Virus record (IMG/VR): IMGVR_UViG_3300037572_000374
Coordinates: 1-64,000 of that record
Length of the DNA: 64,000 nucleotides
Source of the DNA: a virus
Reading direction: 5' to 3' (one strand)
A program made the translations under genes and the position numbers. Positions 3,391 through 53,540 of the stretch are shown in pieces. The notes beneath the pieces are model-generated. The model saw only the letters and a list, made by a program, of their open reading frames with translations, did no database searches and was not told the origin of the DNA. The first letter of the stretch is position 1; the number at the start of each line of letters is the position of its first letter.

Positions 3391-3897
3391 ATGTATGATG
3401 TAAGTTTAGAAAGTAGATTGATATCTTCTGACATTGCTGACATGATGCAAGATTATGTTTCGATTCAGTTAGATATAGACAACACAAAGATTAAAGCAGC
3501 AGCTCTAGTAGCTCAAGAAATAGATATAGCAAGAGTAATTACAAAAGCCAACTTGGATAGAGTAATTGATTTAGATATTTATGATGAGACTATTCCAGAT
3601 GCTGATTTAAGTCTTAGAGCATTGTTGGTGGCACCTTGGTGTTACTATACATATGCAAGATGTCTTACAATGTTCCAAGGAACATTCACAGACTCAGGTT
3701 ATGCTGTTGAAGCAGAAGCCACAGATAAAGATGCTGCTAAGGCTGTAGCACAAGAAATGAAAAGTATAGGTGACAGTTTTATGTTACTTGTTACTGAATT
3801 CCTCACAGCAGAGGATGAAAGTACTTTAGCCGATGATAGCAAACTAGCTCCAAGAATCCGAGTAATGGGAGGAAAGGAGAATAGGGCATCTAATTAG
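3391..3897 (+). CDS. Head-tail connector-like protein
   Basis: 168 aa, starting 2 nt after the portal stop. Largely alpha-helical in character, with a Trp/Tyr-rich centre (APWCYYTYARC). The small size and position right after the portal fit a gp6-type adaptor bridging portal and tail. The exact family is not certain. Confidence 0.5.
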   Translation: MYDVSLESRLISSDIADMMQDYVSIQLDIDNTKIKAAALVAQEIDIARVITKANLDRVIDLDIYDETIPDADLSLRALLVAPWCYYTYARCLTMFQGTFTDSGYAVEAEATDKDAAKAVAQEMKSIGDSFMLLVTEFLTAEDESTLADDSKLAPRIRVMGGKENRASN

Positions 3898-42145: not shown

Positions 42146-42313
42146 ATGATAGAAGTAGTTAAACATGCCTTAGGACTTTGTGGAGAGCATTATCATCCTA
42201 ACTTATGGACTCTTTTGATTGGAGGATTTGGAATAGGAACAACTATTAAGTTTGCAATATCATATTGTAGATGTAAAATAAAGAGTATCTTTAACGAAAA
42301 AAATGAACTGTAA
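42146..42313 (+). CDS. Small membrane protein
   Basis: 55 aa with one membrane segment (WTLLIGGFGIGTTIKFAI) followed by CRCK. Its end overlaps the HNH start by 11 nt. AGTATCTTTAA within its 3' end (42286-42292) may be an internal promoter for the HNH gene. Confidence 0.55.
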   Translation: MIEVVKHALGLCGEHYHPNLWTLLIGGFGIGTTIKFAISYCRCKIKSIFNEKNEL

Positions 42314-42806
42314 AAATTGTAACACAGAAAAGAATATAGTTAATAAACACTTTGGCTTATGTCAAGAGTGTAATAACGAACGATTACATGGATCTAAATA
42401 TGGTAAGACATATACTATGTCCAAGAAAGAAATTAAACCTCTTAGAAGTCGTAAGAATAAGGCAAAGAAGAGTTTATTTAGTAACGTAGAAGCTACACCT
42501 AAAAAGAATATAAAGAGATTAGCTGAAGATGAAGCATTTTATCAAGAGTGTTTCGATCTATCTAATCACAAATGTGAGGAGTGTGGAGTACAATTACCTA
42601 CAGAATTTAGAAATGATGAAGGAAAGGTAAATGCAAGATGGAGATATAGTCATATAGTAGCTAAAAGCATAGCACCAGAGTTAAGACACGATACAAATAA
42701 TATCAATCATTTATGTCTTAAACATCATACACAATGGGATCATGGTGATAAGAAAAGTATGAAGATATATGATGGCAACAAAGGCCGTTTATCAAGGTAC
42801 TTTTAG
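42303..42806 (+). CDS. HNH endonuclease with zinc ribbons
   Basis: 167 aa. N-terminal CKNCNTEKNIVNKHFGLCQECN gives two CxxC pairs; residues about 90-160 form the HNH core: CEECG...YSHIVAKS..(H)..NNINHLCLKHH..WDHG. Cuts double-stranded DNA; could be a homing enzyme or assist packaging. Confidence 0.82.
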   Translation: MNCKNCNTEKNIVNKHFGLCQECNNERLHGSKYGKTYTMSKKEIKPLRSRKNKAKKSLFSNVEATPKKNIKRLAEDEAFYQECFDLSNHKCEECGVQLPTEFRNDEGKVNARWRYSHIVAKSIAPELRHDTNNINHLCLKHHTQWDHGDKKSMKIYDGNKGRLSRYF

Positions 42807-44999: not shown

Positions 45000-45854
45000 A
45001 TGAGTGAATTTAAAAAAGTGAATCTATCTAAGTTGATAGTTGCTGACAGAAAAGAGCCTAAAGCTCCTGAAGTAAAACAATTGAAGAGGATTAAAGATAA
45101 AGATAAAACTTTACCAATTGCTGAGATTTATACTGCAGTACAGTCAGAAGGAAGTAGAGCAGGAATGCCTACAGTAGTAATTAGAACGACTGGATGTACA
45201 CATAGATGTTATTTCGGTGAAGGAGGATGGTGTGATTCTTGGTACACAAGTATTCATCCAGACAAGGGAAGTTATAGTTTCAATGATATCATAAAAGCAT
45301 ATGATGATAATCCACATATATCAGAAATGATGTTGACTGGAGGAAGTCCATCAATGCATAGTGCATTAGTAAATGAACTAACACACTTTGCAAATGAACG
45401 CAACATTGTAATTACAATGGAAACAGAAGGTTCTCACTTCTTAGCAACTGATTATCCAATAGGATTATTAAGTATCAGTCCTAAGTTTAGTAATTCAGTA
45501 CCAGTTTTAGGTGTAGAAACTCCTTTAGGTGCAATTACAGATGAGAGAATGATTAAGCAACACAATAAGTTGAGAATTAACACTCCAGCAATATTAGCTT
45601 CAATCGATTATCATACAGACTATCACATTAAACCAGTATGGGGTGGAAGTAATTATGAAGACTTGAAAGAGATTACTGACTATTTAGAAGAGTTAGGAGT
45701 TGAAGAGAGTAAAGTATACTTTATGCCAGCAGGAGATTCAAGAGAGTCATTACAAGTTTCATATCCTTTAGTATTTGATTGGGTAAGAGATAATGGATAC
45801 AGAATGACTTGGAGACCTCACATCATTGCATTTGAAGACCAAAGGGAAGTATAA
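45000..45854 (+). CDS. queE: 7-carboxy-7-deazaguanine synthase (QueE-like, radical SAM)
   Basis: 284 aa. VQSEGSRAGMPTVVIRTTGC is the QueE N-terminal block. The cluster motif reads C66-x3-C70-x7-C78 (GCTHRCYFGEGGWCDSWY) in place of CX3CX2C. LTGGSPS replaces TGGEP. Uses S-adenosylmethionine and an iron-sulphur cluster to convert carboxytetrahydropterin into CDG. ATG of the flavodoxin gene overlaps its stop. Confidence 0.85.
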   Translation: MSEFKKVNLSKLIVADRKEPKAPEVKQLKRIKDKDKTLPIAEIYTAVQSEGSRAGMPTVVIRTTGCTHRCYFGEGGWCDSWYTSIHPDKGSYSFNDIIKAYDDNPHISEMMLTGGSPSMHSALVNELTHFANERNIVITMETEGSHFLATDYPIGLLSISPKFSNSVPVLGVETPLGAITDERMIKQHNKLRINTPAILASIDYHTDYHIKPVWGGSNYEDLKEITDYLEELGVEESKVYFMPAGDSRESLQVSYPLVFDWVRDNGYRMTWRPHIIAFEDQREV

Positions 45855-46357
45855 TGAATATGAAATTAATATATGGATCAGATACAGGAAAGACTGAAGA
45901 GGTATGTGAAATTGTCGAGAGAGAATTTGATCGTATTGATGAAGTAGTTGAAGTGTCTGAGATGGAAGGAGATGATTGGACTAGTCATGATTTTTATATG
46001 ATTGGTCTTTCAACTTGGTACGATGGAGACTTAGTATCGGCTTGGGAAGATTACTTTGATGAATTTAAAACAAAAGATTTTAGAAATAAGACGTTTTGTT
46101 TATTTGGATTAGGAGATCAAGAGGGCTATGGAGAATATTTTATAGATGGAGTAGGAATGTTGGCTGAGGTTATTGTTGAGAATGGTGGAACAATTATTGG
46201 TAATTGGAGTACTGAAGGATATGATTACGAACAGAGCAAGGCTGAAATAAATAAAGAAATGTTTTATGGATTGGCTTTAGATGAAGACAATCAAGACGAA
46301 CTATCTGAAGAGAGAATTTCTCAATGGATTATTCAACTACAAAAAGAATTAGAATAA
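45854..46357 (+). CDS. fldA: Flavodoxin
   Basis: 167 aa. FMN phosphate loop GSDTGKTEE (residues 8-16), 50s loop GLSTWYDGDL and 90s loop FGLGDQEGYGEYF are all present, so a long-chain flavodoxin. Translationally coupled to queE; flavodoxin is the known electron donor of QueE in bacteria, so a dedicated reductant is likely. Confidence 0.9.
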   Translation: MNMKLIYGSDTGKTEEVCEIVEREFDRIDEVVEVSEMEGDDWTSHDFYMIGLSTWYDGDLVSAWEDYFDEFKTKDFRNKTFCLFGLGDQEGYGEYFIDGVGMLAEVIVENGGTIIGNWSTEGYDYEQSKAEINKEMFYGLALDEDNQDELSEERISQWIIQLQKELE

Positions 46358-46371
46358 AGCGAGAGATAAAG

Positions 46372-46400
46372 TTGCTAGATTGAAATAATTTAGTATCTTT
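46372..46400 (+). promoter_or_regulatory. Promoter for folE
   Basis: TTGC 46372-46375, 18-nt spacer, TATCTTT 46394-46400; inside the deazaguanine cluster. Confidence 0.75.
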
Positions 46401-46430
46401 ATCAAAATTATAAACTAAAAACGTAAAATT

Positions 46431-47138
46431 ATGAGTAACAAAACATTCGTAGATAACTTAGAGCTAGCTGAGGCTGGTCATGCTAATGGTATATCTACAC
46501 AATTAGAAATTGCAAGACAGACGTTTGGTCCTGAGGCTGAATTAACTGTAGAGCAAAAACAAGTGATCATCGACAATGCTGCAAAAGCATATGGAGATTT
46601 CTTAACTGCTCTTGGAGTAGATTATAAGAATGATCCTAATTCAAATGACACTCCAAATAGAGTTGCAAAAGCATATGTGAACGACTTATGGGCAGGAAGA
46701 TATAATGCAATGAGTAAGATTACTGGATTTCCATCTGATGGATATGATGGTATTGTACAAGAGTCTCACATTCCAGTAGTGTCTATGTGTTCTCACCACC
46801 ACCAAGCAATTGGAGGTTCTGTAAGTATTGCTTACATTGCATCTCTTGATGGTAAAGTAGTTGGACTTTCTAAATTAAATAGAATAGTTGAATTGTTTGG
46901 AAGAAGAGGTGCTATTCAAGAACAACTTACAGTTGCAATACATAATGCAGTAGATAAGATTTGTGAAGGTAATCAAGGAGTAGCTGTTAATATTTCTGCA
47001 ACACACAACTGTGTATCTTGTAGAGGAGTTAAACATCAGGGAGCTTCAATGCAAACTGCAAAGTTATCTGGATTCTTTAAGGATGATCCAGCAGCTAGAA
47101 ACGAATTTTATACTAACATTTCATTAAGCGCTAAATAA
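46431..47138 (+). CDS. folE: GTP cyclohydrolase I
   Basis: 235 aa. Zinc and catalytic motifs VVSMCSHHHQ (Cys120, His122-123) and ATHNCVSCRGVKH (residues 191-202), with the SKLNRIVELFGRR block between. Converts GTP to dihydroneopterin triphosphate, the first step to 7-deazaguanines. Residues 1-60 are a helical extension before the core. Confidence 0.93.
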   Translation: MSNKTFVDNLELAEAGHANGISTQLEIARQTFGPEAELTVEQKQVIIDNAAKAYGDFLTALGVDYKNDPNSNDTPNRVAKAYVNDLWAGRYNAMSKITGFPSDGYDGIVQESHIPVVSMCSHHHQAIGGSVSIAYIASLDGKVVGLSKLNRIVELFGRRGAIQEQLTVAIHNAVDKICEGNQGVAVNISATHNCVSCRGVKHQGASMQTAKLSGFFKDDPAARNEFYTNISLSAK

Positions 47139-47705
47139 ATGAACTTAAATCAATACCAAAAGCAAGCCATAACGACTAAGATATATGCTGATGAAGCTGC
47201 TCTTAGTTATTTGGCCCTTGGTTTGGGAGGGGAGTCTTCTGAACTATTCGAAAAGATAAAAGAAAGTAGAAAGGAGATCACTACTTTAGAAGGTGATAAA
47301 TTACAATTACTTGCAAAAGAGATTGGTGATGTATATTGGTACTTGGCTGGATTGGCTCAAGAGACTGATCAGAAATTAGGTGATATCTATTTTGATTACT
47401 CTAAAGATTTGCCAGTAGATAGTAAATTTGATAATGTAGTTGACATGCTAGTTGTTGAAACTGGAGCAGTATTGGAAGTATTCAAGAAGGCTTTGAGAGA
47501 TGATTACACACTATTTGTTGATAAGAAATTAGTACCAGGTAAATTTATGAAGATGAATGTAGCGATTGCTAATTTGTTAACCATATGTGAATACCTAGCT
47601 AACTTCTTTGGAGTAGAAGTAAGTACAATCTTACAGCAAAATGTAGATAAGTTAGCATCAAGAGCTAAAAGAGGAACTTTAAGTGGATCAGGAGATGTTA
47701 GATAA
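47139..47705 (+). CDS. mazG: MazG-like nucleotide pyrophosphohydrolase
   Basis: 188 aa. The metal site GGESSELFEKIK with KEIGDVYWYLA is the ExxE..ExxD pattern of all-alpha NTP pyrophosphatases. The second half (VVETGAVLEVFKKAL...) looks like a degenerate second copy, forming a one-chain pseudo-dimer. In this cluster it could remove unmodified dNTPs or by-products; that is inference. Confidence 0.8.
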   Translation: MNLNQYQKQAITTKIYADEAALSYLALGLGGESSELFEKIKESRKEITTLEGDKLQLLAKEIGDVYWYLAGLAQETDQKLGDIYFDYSKDLPVDSKFDNVVDMLVVETGAVLEVFKKALRDDYTLFVDKKLVPGKFMKMNVAIANLLTICEYLANFFGVEVSTILQQNVDKLASRAKRGTLSGSGDVR

Positions 47706-49961: not shown

Positions 49962-51515
49962 ATGAATAAGGAACAAAATAAATTATACAATTACTGTAAA
50001 GCAATGCTTCTAGATTTTACGATCGAAGGAGAATTCTTGCTTATAGATGGTAATAAGTATATGATCTTAAATGATGAAATTAATCTTATAGATGAAGATG
50101 GAGATTTTGAACCTGATTCAGTTTTTAAACTAACTGACGATGTAGATGGATTTGTATATGAATTTGGAGGAAGATTCTATACACAAAATAAAGAACAAGA
50201 TTTAACTTTAACTGAGTTAAATTATATTGGTAAAGCAAAAGAGAAATTACCAACAAAATCTTTTCTAGGAATAAGATCAGGATATGAACTTATGAATGGA
50301 ATGGGATTATATAAGTCATGGATATCAAAAGCAAAGTTCTTAGGAGCTGAGGCTTTAGGAATCTGTGAGAAGAATACTCTTGGTGGAGTGCTAAACTTTC
50401 AGAACGAATGTAAGAATGCAAACATCAAGTCAATAATTGGAATGACTATTTCTGTTGAAGGATCCAAAACATATGATGTAAAATTATATGCAAAGAACTT
50501 TCAAGGATGGTTAAACTTATTGAAGTTCAATACTATAATTAATGTAGATTTGAATTTCAGTGTTCCAATTTCAACATTAGAAAATAACAAAGAAGGATTA
50601 TTCATTGTTGCAGATCCTAAAAGTATGGATTATCACAATGTTAATGAATTAGATGTAGACTTTTATCAATTAGATACTGTAAACTTTTTGAATGCAGATA
50701 GAGATGAGAAGTACATCAATAATTTAGAGCTATTTATTACGAGCGATATTGAACCAATTAGTATTACAGATGCATTTTATTTAGAATCACAAGACTTTCA
50801 GACTAGAGAATCTTTGTGGACTATCAATAAAGCATTTGACGATAAGACTGACAATCAATATTTCAAGTCTAAGTCACAATATGCTGGTGAATTATTAACT
50901 ATGTTTGATTCACAAGATAAGAGTTGGATTGAATTGTATAAAAGAGCAATAAGTAATGAGGTAGTGTTGGTTGAGAATTGTAACTTTAGTTATGATACAG
51001 ATACAAGACACTTGCCAAGATATATAATGACTGAAGAAGAGTCTGAAAACTTTGATACAAATGAACTATTGTTCATGAATATAGTTAAGAAAGGATTTAA
51101 AGATAGAGAAGTTAAGGATGCAGAAAAATATGTAGCAAGATTAAAAAAAGAGATTGCTGTATTGAAGATGGGTGATGTAATAGATTACTTTTTAAGTCTT
51201 CATGATATTATTAGATATGCAAAAAGCAAAAAGATGTTAACTGGAATTGGTCGAGGATCAGCTGGTGGAAGTTTAGTTGCTTATTTGATGGGAATTATTC
51301 AAGTGGATCCTTTAAGATTCGATTTATTATTTGAAAGATTTTTGAATAGTGGAAGGATGGGTAAATTTGAAGAAAGACCTTCTTACATTATTGAAGCAGA
51401 TGGTGAAACTTTAGAATTTGAAGAGGGATCCTTAGTAAGAATAAAAAGAGATAGTAAAGAAACAGTTGTCTTTGTACATGAAGTTGTAGAAGGTGATGAA
51501 ATAATAAGATACTAA
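49962..51515 (+). CDS. dnaE: DNA polymerase III alpha, N-terminal half (split)
   Basis: 517 aa. Residues 1-90 are an extra domain; 90-330 is a degenerate PHP domain (SFLGIRSGYELMNGMG, with the usual metal His missing); the palm begins about residue 395 and includes TGIGRGSAGGSLVAYLMGII and DLLFERFLNSGR. The last approximately 50 residues (ADGETLEFEEGSLVRIKRD...VVEGDEIIRY) are a small beta-rich tail not part of normal DnaE. The catalytic Asp pair is not here but in the next protein. Confidence 0.88.
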   Translation: MNKEQNKLYNYCKAMLLDFTIEGEFLLIDGNKYMILNDEINLIDEDGDFEPDSVFKLTDDVDGFVYEFGGRFYTQNKEQDLTLTELNYIGKAKEKLPTKSFLGIRSGYELMNGMGLYKSWISKAKFLGAEALGICEKNTLGGVLNFQNECKNANIKSIIGMTISVEGSKTYDVKLYAKNFQGWLNLLKFNTIINVDLNFSVPISTLENNKEGLFIVADPKSMDYHNVNELDVDFYQLDTVNFLNADRDEKYINNLELFITSDIEPISITDAFYLESQDFQTRESLWTINKAFDDKTDNQYFKSKSQYAGELLTMFDSQDKSWIELYKRAISNEVVLVENCNFSYDTDTRHLPRYIMTEEESENFDTNELLFMNIVKKGFKDREVKDAEKYVARLKKEIAVLKMGDVIDYFLSLHDIIRYAKSKKMLTGIGRGSAGGSLVAYLMGIIQVDPLRFDLLFERFLNSGRMGKFEERPSYIIEADGETLEFEEGSLVRIKRDSKETVVFVHEVVEGDEIIRY

Positions 51516-51518
51516 AAT

Positions 51519-53540
51519 ATGAAAGTAACTAAGATAACACAAAACACCTCTATGAAGTTGGTAGATGGAACGCTTCCAGATATTGATACAGATTTTGCTG
51601 GTAGAAATAGAGCTGAGATTAAACAATACATGGAAGATAGATTTGGTCAAGAACAAGTGTGTTCAGTAGGATCTTATTCTACTATGAAATTGAAAGGCTT
51701 GGTAAAAGATTTTGCAAGAATATCTTCAGTTGACTTTAAAGAAGCTAATCTAATTACTTCAATAATTGATGCAGGAGATTTAACTATGTTAGATTTAATT
51801 AAAAGAGCTAGTAGTGAGCCAAGATTAAAGTCTTTCATTCAAAGGAACAGTGACATATTCTATATGTTGCCTACTTTGTTAGATCAGCCTAAGACACAAT
51901 CAATTCATCCATGTGCTGTAATTATATTCCCAAGTGTAATGAGTGCATCAGAATGGGTGCCAACAAGGTTACAACAAGGATTAGTAGTTTCAGAATGGGG
52001 AGGTAATGAAATGGATGATGCTGGATTCTTAAAGGATGATATTTTAGGTATTAAGCAATTAGATAAGTTTACAGATATCTTAGATCTCATAAAGATTAAT
52101 GATAAAGAAGTACCTAACATATATGATCTACCACACGATCCAGAAGTATTCAGATACTTTGGTAATGGATGGAATGGAGATGTGTTTCAATTAGGATCCA
52201 CTGGACTTACAGAATATAGTAAAGCACTAAAGCCTCAAAGAATTGAAGATTTAATTGCTGCAACTGCTGTATATAGACCTGGACCAATGGAGAATCACTA
52301 TCATGAGATTTATGTAAAGTGTAAGAATGAAGGTAGAGAGCCTAAATACTTATGGGGTACAGAAGAGATTGCAAAGGATACATTTGGACTTTTGATATAT
52401 CAGGAACAAGTAATGCAAGTGTTCCAATTAGTTGGAGGACTGAGTATGAAAGAAGCTGATGATGTTAGGAGAGCAATGGGTAAAAAGAAGTTATCTGCAT
52501 TGTTAAAGTGGAAAGAGAAAGTAGCTCAGGGATTCTTAGATAAAGGAGCAACACAAGCTCAGTTTGATGAAGTGTGGGTAGCAGTAATGGAGTTTGCAAA
52601 GTATGGATTCAATAAGAGTCACTCTGCTGCATATGCTATGACTGGTTATGCTTCTCAATGGTTAAAAGTTCATTATCCAATTGAATATTGGACAGTGGCT
52701 TTAGATTATGCAAATGAAGAAGATACTTTAAAGTATTTATCTGAAATTATGCAAGCCAAAGCAATTAGTGTGAAGGCTCCAGATATTAATCACTCAGCAA
52801 TGAGTATGATATCTGATCAAGAATCAAGTACAATCTTTTGGGGATTAGGATCCATCAAAGGTATTGGAGAAGATACAGCTAATCAAATTATTCAAGATAG
52901 AATTGAAAAAGGAGATTATAAGTCTTTTGCAGATTTTGTATTCAGACATAACTTCAAAGGTAGTAAAGTAAAGAAACAAACATATGAAGCACTAATTGCA
53001 TCAGGATGTTTTGATGATTTATACAATCTTGAAGGTAGAGAAGAAAGAAGACATCTGTTAATAAAGAGATATAGAAAGTATAAAAAAGTAAAGATAGCCA
53101 ATCCTAAAAGAGATGTTTATACAATAGGACAGACAGATCAAAGATGGTGGTGGTCATTACAGCAAAAGAGATTAACTGGTTTAGCATTCTTAGACTATAA
53201 AGGAATAGCAGAAGACTATGGAGTAGAATCTCAATTTGCTACATTAAGTGAAGTTAGTGGAAAGCAAGAGAAATCTATCTTTAGAAGTTTTGGTGGATAC
53301 ATAGTAGAAGCTAAAGTTGCAAGATCAGCTAAAGGTGAATATTGTAGAATAACAATAGAACATAATTACAAGTTATTTAAGATTATGGTTTGGTCAGAAG
53401 AGTTTGAAAACTTTAAGACTCAACTAAAAGGATCTGAAAAGAATCTGATAATATTTGAGGGTGAATTAAGATATGATGCCAAGTGGGCTAGAGCAAATCA
53501 GTTTACAATCAAAGAAAATTCAAAATTAATTGTTCTCTAG
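51519..53540 (+). CDS. dnaE: DNA polymerase III alpha, C-terminal half (split)
   Basis: 673 aa starting 3 nt after the N-terminal half. DGTLPDIDTDF (residues 17-27) holds the two catalytic Asp of C-family polymerases; further motifs include RPGPMENH, YQEQVMQVFQLVGG, ADDVRRAMGKKK, FNKSHSAAYA, a helix-hairpin-helix region (WGLGSIKGIGEDTANQI) and a C-terminal OB-like domain. Must associate with the upstream protein to be active. Confidence 0.9.
   Translation: MKVTKITQNTSMKLVDGTLPDIDTDFAGRNRAEIKQYMEDRFGQEQVCSVGSYSTMKLKGLVKDFARISSVDFKEANLITSIIDAGDLTMLDLIKRASSEPRLKSFIQRNSDIFYMLPTLLDQPKTQSIHPCAVIIFPSVMSASEWVPTRLQQGLVVSEWGGNEMDDAGFLKDDILGIKQLDKFTDILDLIKINDKEVPNIYDLPHDPEVFRYFGNGWNGDVFQLGSTGLTEYSKALKPQRIEDLIAATAVYRPGPMENHYHEIYVKCKNEGREPKYLWGTEEIAKDTFGLLIYQEQVMQVFQLVGGLSMKEADDVRRAMGKKKLSALLKWKEKVAQGFLDKGATQAQFDEVWVAVMEFAKYGFNKSHSAAYAMTGYASQWLKVHYPIEYWTVALDYANEEDTLKYLSEIMQAKAISVKAPDINHSAMSMISDQESSTIFWGLGSIKGIGEDTANQIIQDRIEKGDYKSFADFVFRHNFKGSKVKKQTYEALIASGCFDDLYNLEGREERRHLLIKRYRKYKKVKIANPKRDVYTIGQTDQRWWWSLQQKRLTGLAFLDYKGIAEDYGVESQFATLSEVSGKQEKSIFRSFGGYIVEAKVARSAKGEYCRITIEHNYKLFKIMVWSEEFENFKTQLKGSEKNLIIFEGELRYDAKWARANQFTIKENSKLIVL

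Follow-up and report, generated by a model that had tools for sequence, protein, structure and literature searches.

The 64,000-nucleotide stretch analysed here (the window; positions 1 to 64,000 of the 78,505-base IMG/VR virus record IMGVR_UViG_3300037572_000374) carries two adjacent open reading frames (ORFs) that together correspond to one replicative DNA polymerase of the DnaE family (DNA polymerase III alpha). The break lies in the palm, next to the catalytic residues, and the end of the first protein and the start of the second are predicted to form one small beta module that resembles the core of a Hint (intein-type) fold. We consider it likely that the two ORFs code for the two chains of one polymerase, predicted to be active, and that a splicing-dead intein core at the seam clamps them together without splicing; this estimate is for the explanation as a whole. 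Within it, we infer the intein origin of the module, the clamping in the infected cell, the polymerase activity and the insertion of a mobile gene as the cause of the cut. The features concerned are:

49962..51515, + strand: polymerase N-chain (517 residues) with PHP domain and first part of the palm; ORF, Pfam, PHROG 13169
51519..53540, + strand: polymerase C-chain (673 residues) with remaining palm, fingers, HHH and C-terminal part; ORF, Pfam, PHROG 12219
51516..51518, + strand: spacer AAT, 3 nucleotides, from the stop of the N-chain (TAA) to the start of the C-chain (ATG); sequence
51243..51272, + strand: glycine-rich motif GIGRGSAGGS of the N-chain; sequence and alignment
51360..51512, + strand: N-tail, residues 467-517, putative N-terminal part of the trimmed Hint core; 39-tail profile and models
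51519..51569, + strand: C-head, residues 1-17, putative other part of the Hint core; models and conserved start
51579..51587, + strand: codons D21-I22-D23 of PDIDTDF, with the first two presumed catalytic aspartates; invariant in 10 aligned C-chains
52038..52040, + strand: codon D174 (FLKDDILG), presumed third catalytic aspartate; invariant in 10 aligned C-chains

According to Pfam, the domain order of DnaE-type C-family polymerases (PHP, palm, fingers, HHH) is present, spread over the two ORFs. The N-chain matches PHP (4.4e-11) and positions 5-98 of the DNA_pol3_alpha model, and the C-chain matches positions 100-260 of the same model, the finger domain (4.1e-37) and HHH_6, so that a single Pfam domain is cut in two. 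The cut falls between the GRGSAGG motif on the N-chain, where G428, G430-A434, G436 and S437 are invariant in a five-row alignment, and the aspartates of the C-chain, which are presumably catalytic, as judged from the residues of E. coli DnaE. A preliminary description of this DNA had proposed a polymerase in two ORFs, the second restarting 3 nucleotides downstream, with the glycine-rich motif parted from the DxD in PDIDTDF and with a tail devoid of Cys and catalytic His. The coordinates, the position of PDIDTDF on the second protein (which also carries FLKDDILG) and the composition of the tail all agree with it. It missed that the first 17 residues of the second protein, whose start (MK[VI]..I) is conserved among relatives, complete the module of the N-tail.

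Both sequence comparison and structure prediction bear on the nature of this module. A search of the PDB with a profile of 39 tails gave 18 sequences at E<=10. Inteins hold the top four places (9hth, 1.5e-5; 5o9j, 3.5e-4; 2cw7, 1.8e-3; 2jmz, 1.9e-3); 5o9i and 2lcj are inteins too, bringing the number to six of the 18, and the match starts well past the first intein residue. When the tails were scanned singly against Pfam, 14 of the 39 matched PF14890 (Intein_splicing) at E<=0.1, the best at 6.2e-5, and some weakly matched SH3- or OB-like models.

The AlphaFold2 model was computed for an artificially read-through chain of 1192 residues, with TAA read as Tyr (predicted local distance difference test score, pLDDT, 88.4; predicted template modelling score, pTM, 0.78). 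The N-tail is predicted to form four strands (468-504) and the C-head one long fifth strand (520-534) which belongs to the beta module of the tail. A Foldseek search with the whole model lists entries for DnaE-type polymerase III alpha or DNA polymerase in its top 14 rows, the best match being 7pu7_A (template modelling scores 0.71/0.78). A model of the module alone (78 residues, pLDDT 81.5, pTM 0.57) retrieved Hint folds in the first 19 Foldseek rows. In VIA-align, ranks 1-46 of the 50 rows listed are Hint structures (Z 8.5 to 3.9), while NusG appears at 47 and 49. In most of these rows the aligned stretch begins about 30-50 residues into the intein and ends short of its C-terminus; since both ends are omitted, the part left would be a core lacking the catalytic segments at its beginning and end. 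The cut within this core falls where split inteins are split. The module is Hint-like by sequence comparison and, for a part of the fold, in predicted structure, although these two kinds of evidence are not fully independent because most of the same tails served in the alignment of the model.

Among named phages, the nearest relatives of the polymerase are found in the Cellulophaga phages phiST, phi19:2 and phi13:1, at 70% in the C-chain and 56% in the N-chain, and in Tenacibaculum phage Larrie, at 61% and 52%, respectively. The phages phi19:2 and Larrie, both classified as Cbastvirus, have the same split and the same tail; in phi19:2 the halves are annotated as two coding sequences (two polymerase genes). 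In phiST and phi13:1, the N and C matches are separate but adjacent. A frameshift in the reads, named in the preliminary description as a possible cause of the break, is ruled out by the recurrence of split and tail in phi19:2 and Larrie. In Chryseobacterium phage MA9V-3 the chain is single and unbroken, and ten residues separate ERFL from DID.

IMG/VR was scanned with alignments of the C-chain and of the N-chain, and the best 80 loci of each scan were considered. Among the matches listed, a split with a tail of the window's kind is found in 43 of 46 distinct junction types, window included. The other three are a split without a module by eye (L058) and two short in-frame loops (L108, L130); in most uninterrupted loci ERFL and DID are 24-33 nucleotides apart. 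A similar N-tail arrangement occurs in 24 of 26 loci from bacterial genomes, including the complete chromosome of B. fragilis Q1F2 and cultured Bacteroides genomes, while the remaining two (L278 and L282) have no N-half within the stretch examined. The N-tail is under purifying selection: pooled over 12 pairs, its ratio of nonsynonymous to synonymous substitution rates (dN/dS) is 0.134, compared with 0.062 for up to 100 codons preceding it.

In the window, with its 3-nucleotide spacer, there is no endonuclease gene between the halves; several relatives have one. Twelve loci of the Cbastvirus type were compared at the junction. The spacer is 1-3 nucleotides in six of them and 21 nucleotides in one, and in another the halves overlap by 4 nucleotides. 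Three have 219-245 nucleotides between the halves, holding a small ORF, and L014 has 882 nucleotides with a gene of PAPS-reductase type. Many Bacteroides-type loci carry a helicase gene in the junction (PIF1-like in L140; annotated as Dda-like in phage BS-TP1), and further cargo in relatives comprises a DNA methylase gene and endonuclease genes of NUMOD4/HNH or GIY-YIG type. A 124-residue ORF without a Pfam match lies between N-half and helicase gene in L041:4313-4684 (also in L261). In L058:29-8298, the cut in a phage DnaE is at the corresponding position, several genes separate the halves, one of these genes contains an intein-like insert, and no Hint-like tail is seen by eye. An HNH endonuclease gene breaks the polymerase III alpha of Bacillus phage KLEB27-3 (L246:1561-5931) into two annotated coding sequences; the palm motif FPDFDID of this polymerase is itself unbroken.

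The module also occurs within uninterrupted chains. A strict survey for in-frame inserts returned none and a looser one returned four loci (L111, L162, L229 and L006). From ERFL to DID, a single chain runs through 62 residues in L111 and 66 residues in L162; by eye the stretch reads clearly as tail plus head in L111 and less clearly so in L162. The 67-residue in-frame insert of L006 looks unrelated. L229 (2-3460) is a Bacteroides-type polymerase with full N-tail and C-head in one ORF. When L111 was used as query, seven loci were obtained (L111 itself, one nearer relative, L248, with 41%, and five distant polymerases), and none of them other than L111 has the module.

In a tree of 78 N-halves the split requires four changes, all forced by well-supported branches. 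There is a Cbastvirus-type split clade of 11 rows (100/100) and a Bacteroides-type split clade of 34 rows (100/100). L229 is one of these 34 rows, placed as sister of L214 (100/98), so that it apparently represents a re-fusion. The split locus L112 is the sister of the unsplit L130 (100/99). A tree of 76 C-halves likewise keeps the two large split groups apart and places L112 with L130. Splits with the module thus occur in three lineages, and separate fissions are possible, as is one older fission with later losses. The suggestion that the tail is left over from an inserted element of Hint/intein type, which had been made in the preliminary description, is well supported by the 39-tail profile, by the module model and by the one-chain module in relatives. 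Its further suggestion, a docking role, fits the AlphaFold2 models and the one natural re-fusion, and the tail may well act in this way.

We propose that an intein once occupied the palm loop just before the catalytic PDIDTD and that it lost both catalytic ends, so that a splicing-dead Hint core would have stayed in the polymerase. The gene would then have been cut inside this core, at the position where split inteins are broken, possibly by insertion of a mobile gene. N-tail and C-head would refold together as a Hint core, complementing each other as the parts of split inteins do, and this core would clamp the N-chain (PHP, glycine-rich motif) non-covalently to the C-chain (catalytic aspartates, fingers), with no ligation. 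Several results weigh against this proposal. The window's own tail has no intein match in Pfam, weak unrelated ones only, and a profile of the C-head alone found no match in PDB. Foldseek gave no match for the module at E<=0.001 (best 0.035), and VIA-align warns that Z values of 7-8 can be common, the top value here being 8.5. The models represent a single read-through chain, with Tyr in place of the stop. The N-tail changes at roughly double the rate of the polymerase part preceding it, and a complete intein at this polymerase site was not seen in the in-frame insert surveys of the loci.

Part of these results would suit a small beta domain which is unrelated to inteins and has become Hint-like through convergence. 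The weak Foldseek E-values, the short, beta-rich and divergent sequence and the weak SH3- and OB-like matches of some tails are in line with this, but the tail profile and the modelled fold of tail plus head indicate the same family, even if not fully independently, and we regard convergence as decidedly unlikely. At the other extreme, the module might be an active split intein that joins both halves into one polymerase chain by trans-splicing, as its Hint-like character and its break at a split-intein-like place could suggest. Active inteins have Cys or Ser as first residue, TxxH in block B, His-Asn at the C-terminus, and Cys, Ser or Thr at position +1. In the sequence and alignments of the window junction there is no Cys in the N-tail, no Cys or Ser at position 1, no TxxH and no C-terminal His-Asn, and with both catalytic ends missing no splicing is expected. 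Moreover, at least the first 30 intein residues are omitted from the aligned stretch in most rows, and where Bacteroides-type tails have a Cys (PERCGL), their heads lack the terminal Asn. Active splicing was rejected on these residues, and trans-splicing is very improbable.

It is also conceivable that the two chains assemble through the polymerase's own palm surfaces, with tail and head being incidental or regulatory. Split phage enzymes without a module do work, examples being Aeh1 NrdA and split gp43 (PMC2988022); L058 is split at the same place without a recognizable module, and the tail is less constrained than the core. We nevertheless consider this unlikely, given that the module has been retained in both large split clades and in L112, and that structure prediction gives it confidently as a single unit. 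A sequencing error, a pseudogene or a single gene read through its stop can practically be dismissed. In the window the C-chain is, by chance, in the frame of the N-chain (TAA AAT ATG), but the frame offset from N stop to C start is 0, 1 or 2 among the 12 Cbastvirus-type loci. A fusion by read-through or frameshift is thus not conserved, and the two chains are probably translated as separate proteins. The same split in independently sequenced phages argues against an error, and the retained conserved residues together with purifying selection on tail and core argue against a pseudogene. A splicing-dead intein core which clamps the two polymerase chains is, in our opinion, the best explanation.

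In the gut phage scaffold MT835601 (L009), the polymerase ORF ending at 3475 holds a seemingly complete intein (Cys at the start, CN/S at the end, by eye) at KYSFNK/SHAAAYA, presumably the site of the cyanobacterial DnaE split intein.

In seven relatives of the window, the frame is broken once more at this junction. Junction loci were gathered in a survey of the best 80 loci. In seven distinct junctions the ORF of the C-head ends with LP and a stop, and the frame reopens at DVD or DID 7 or 8 nucleotides after the P codon (the stop plus 4-5 nucleotides). We refer to them as stop-hop junctions:

L152:3772-3902: LP and stop before the first catalytic aspartate codon, hairpin, adjoining HNH ORF
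L176:3888-4015: stop-hop junction (same as L259)
L179:3888-4015: stop-hop junction
L183:3889-4015: stop-hop junction
L225 and L228:3889-4015: stop-hop junctions
L007:8183-8309: stop-hop junction

L176 is identical over 2,500 bases to L259 from the isolate genome of Bacteroides sp. 224; it was therefore counted once, and it is not a metagenome artefact. An HNH-type ORF ends 99-110 nucleotides before DID in each of the seven, with NUMOD4 and HNH_3 confirmed by Pfam for three. All seven have a hairpin of 10 base pairs with a 3-nucleotide loop whose 3' arm ends 2 nucleotides before the stop. Among 300 synonymous recodings per junction, none attained the free energy of this hairpin (-17.3 to -21.0), whereas the values of 40 unbroken LP junctions, the window's among them, lie between -2.6 and -12.3 (p = 1.5e-5, relatedness ignored). 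L196, L200, L201, L209, L210, L214 and L229 keep the frame but have residues other than LP at this position; they do not count as breaks and were excluded from the 40. L193, L204, L208, L241, L244 and L009 are outside the break scoring. The dN/dS of the ORF downstream of the stop is 0.019 (L225/L228) and 0.016 (L179/L183), while three other broken pairs are saturated; given this strong purifying selection in two pairs, the downstream ORF is very probably translated.

A ribosome hop from the CCG or CCA codon to the triplet before the aspartate codon would restore LPDVD or LPDID for both insert lengths. The landing triplet is TCG in five cases and GCG in one. As an alternative for these seven relatives, the C-half may be made through a +1/+2 frameshift or through internal re-initiation, a substantial possibility even if we lean against it. 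A shift also reopens the frame, adding two residues, but the 7- and 8-nucleotide inserts need different shifts, while one hop rule fits all seven. In favour of re-initiation, L007, L037/L225 and L152 have upstream TTG starts in frame with DID; the possible internal starts are, however, not shared, and the reopened frame of L179 has no ATG, GTG or TTG before DID.

The stop-hop label is carried by seven rows of the tree and needs five changes there. Well-supported branches force every one of them, a pattern that would be expected of a mobile trait. When IMG/VR was scanned for the 8- and 7-nucleotide forms, each pattern gave three contigs, all six being DnaE junctions already known. Rfam gave no match at gathering score for eight junction loci, and the endonuclease ORF of L152, used as query, retrieved nothing but itself. 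In L009:940-1060, the same catalytic codon shows a GAT, 37 nucleotides with a hairpin (-19.2 kcal/mol), and a GAT again; the ORF ahead of this element is GIY-YIG-like by eye, without a Pfam match.

The association of endonuclease and break does not follow a simple rule, as 20 distinct NUMOD4-type ORFs fall into three clusters of 11, five and four. For ten members of the largest cluster there is at least one locus in which an unbroken head follows immediately; where members occur in broken loci, a second ORF intervenes. In the cluster of five, three are at broken junctions and two at unbroken ones (L201, L200), and the smallest cluster is confined to broken ones. In L153 an unbroken head is preceded by a GIY-YIG/NUMOD1 ORF. 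In L201 and L200, just before 4001, the HNH ORF is directly upstream, the head is unbroken, and LP is replaced by LA and MS, possibly another way of altering the target of the endonuclease.

These observations suggest a more general reading, in which the palm-loop junction of DnaE in Bacteroidota phages is a recurrent landing site of mobile elements: an intein-core clamp, inserted genes (replication or endonuclease genes) and an endonuclease-paired mini-bypass. The mini-bypass (hairpin, LP codons, stop and 4-5 nucleotides), placed in the seven stop-hop relatives precisely ahead of the codon for the first catalytic aspartate, would protect the endonuclease's own target, and the ribosome hop would restore LPDVD or LPDID. 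We put this forward tentatively, as its chances seem to us close to balanced, slightly on the doubtful side.

Compared with known systems, the window polymerase resembles bacterial DnaE in domains, conserved aspartates and overall fold, and differs in being two chains with a cut palm and a beta module at the cut. With phage split inteins (Aes123 PolB1, 9hth; MIJ3 PolB, PMC6892783), it shares a Hint-like core that is distributed over two products, close to the active site of a polymerase. Between the halves of the MIJ3 PolB split intein lies an HNH gene (PMC6892783), and some relatives of the window also have endonuclease genes there; the module of the window, in contrast, lacks both catalytic ends, and its halves are not separated by an endonuclease gene. 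Phage genes split close to homing endonucleases (Aeh1 nrdA/mobE, gp43 of phages 25 and 44RR, T4 genes 39/60; PMC2988022) likewise are contiguous enzyme genes cut into two chains, but the window has an intein-like module at the cut and no endonuclease gene.

For the seven stop-hop relatives, though not for the window, T4 gene 60 is the closest comparison. It combines the HNH gene MobA, a split gene, a stop after the take-off codon, a stem-loop and a 50-nucleotide gap (PMC3014915, PMC5009743). The relatives share a 5' HNH gene, a split gene, a stop right after the presumed take-off codon, a hairpin and a different downstream frame, and thus have a bypass-like set of parts that includes a conserved downstream ORF. 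They differ in that the gap is 7-8 rather than 50 nucleotides, the hairpin is 5' of the take-off codon, and the landing triplet equals the take-off codon in one of seven (L152); recoding in the relatives is putative. Bypassing in gene 60 has been called unique (PMC3014915), with Streptomyces phage Hau3 as a possible further case (PMC5009743).

Elsewhere in the window, ORFs at 45000-47705 are QueE-like, GTP cyclohydrolase-like and MazG-like by eye, as in the corresponding part of phi19:2, and perhaps serve deazaguanine modification of the phage DNA. An ORF at 42303-42806 resembles an HNH nuclease by eye.

The existence of PHROGs families which match the N-chain (13169) and the C-chain (12219), together with the two-gene annotation of phi19:2, means that databases already contain the split implicitly. 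Phage genes split next to homing endonucleases (PMC2988022) and split inteins in phage polymerases (PMC6892783) are already known, separately. A literature search, with most subscription journals outside its reach, found no prior description of the split or of stop-hop junctions. As far as our searches show, three things are new: a splicing-dead, Hint-like core where the two chains meet, the forms of this core that lie in one chain or have been re-fused, and the stop-hop junctions.

If our explanation is true, a splicing-dead core under selection shows one fate of an inactive intein, that of a ready-made clamp, and supplies nature's own blueprint for split polymerases. Should the stop-hop junctions prove real, they would add several bypass elements of small size, including one from the genome of a bacterial isolate (Bacteroides sp. 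224), as short natural counterparts of T4 gene 60, and the connection proposed here between endonuclease immunity and bypassing could be tested.

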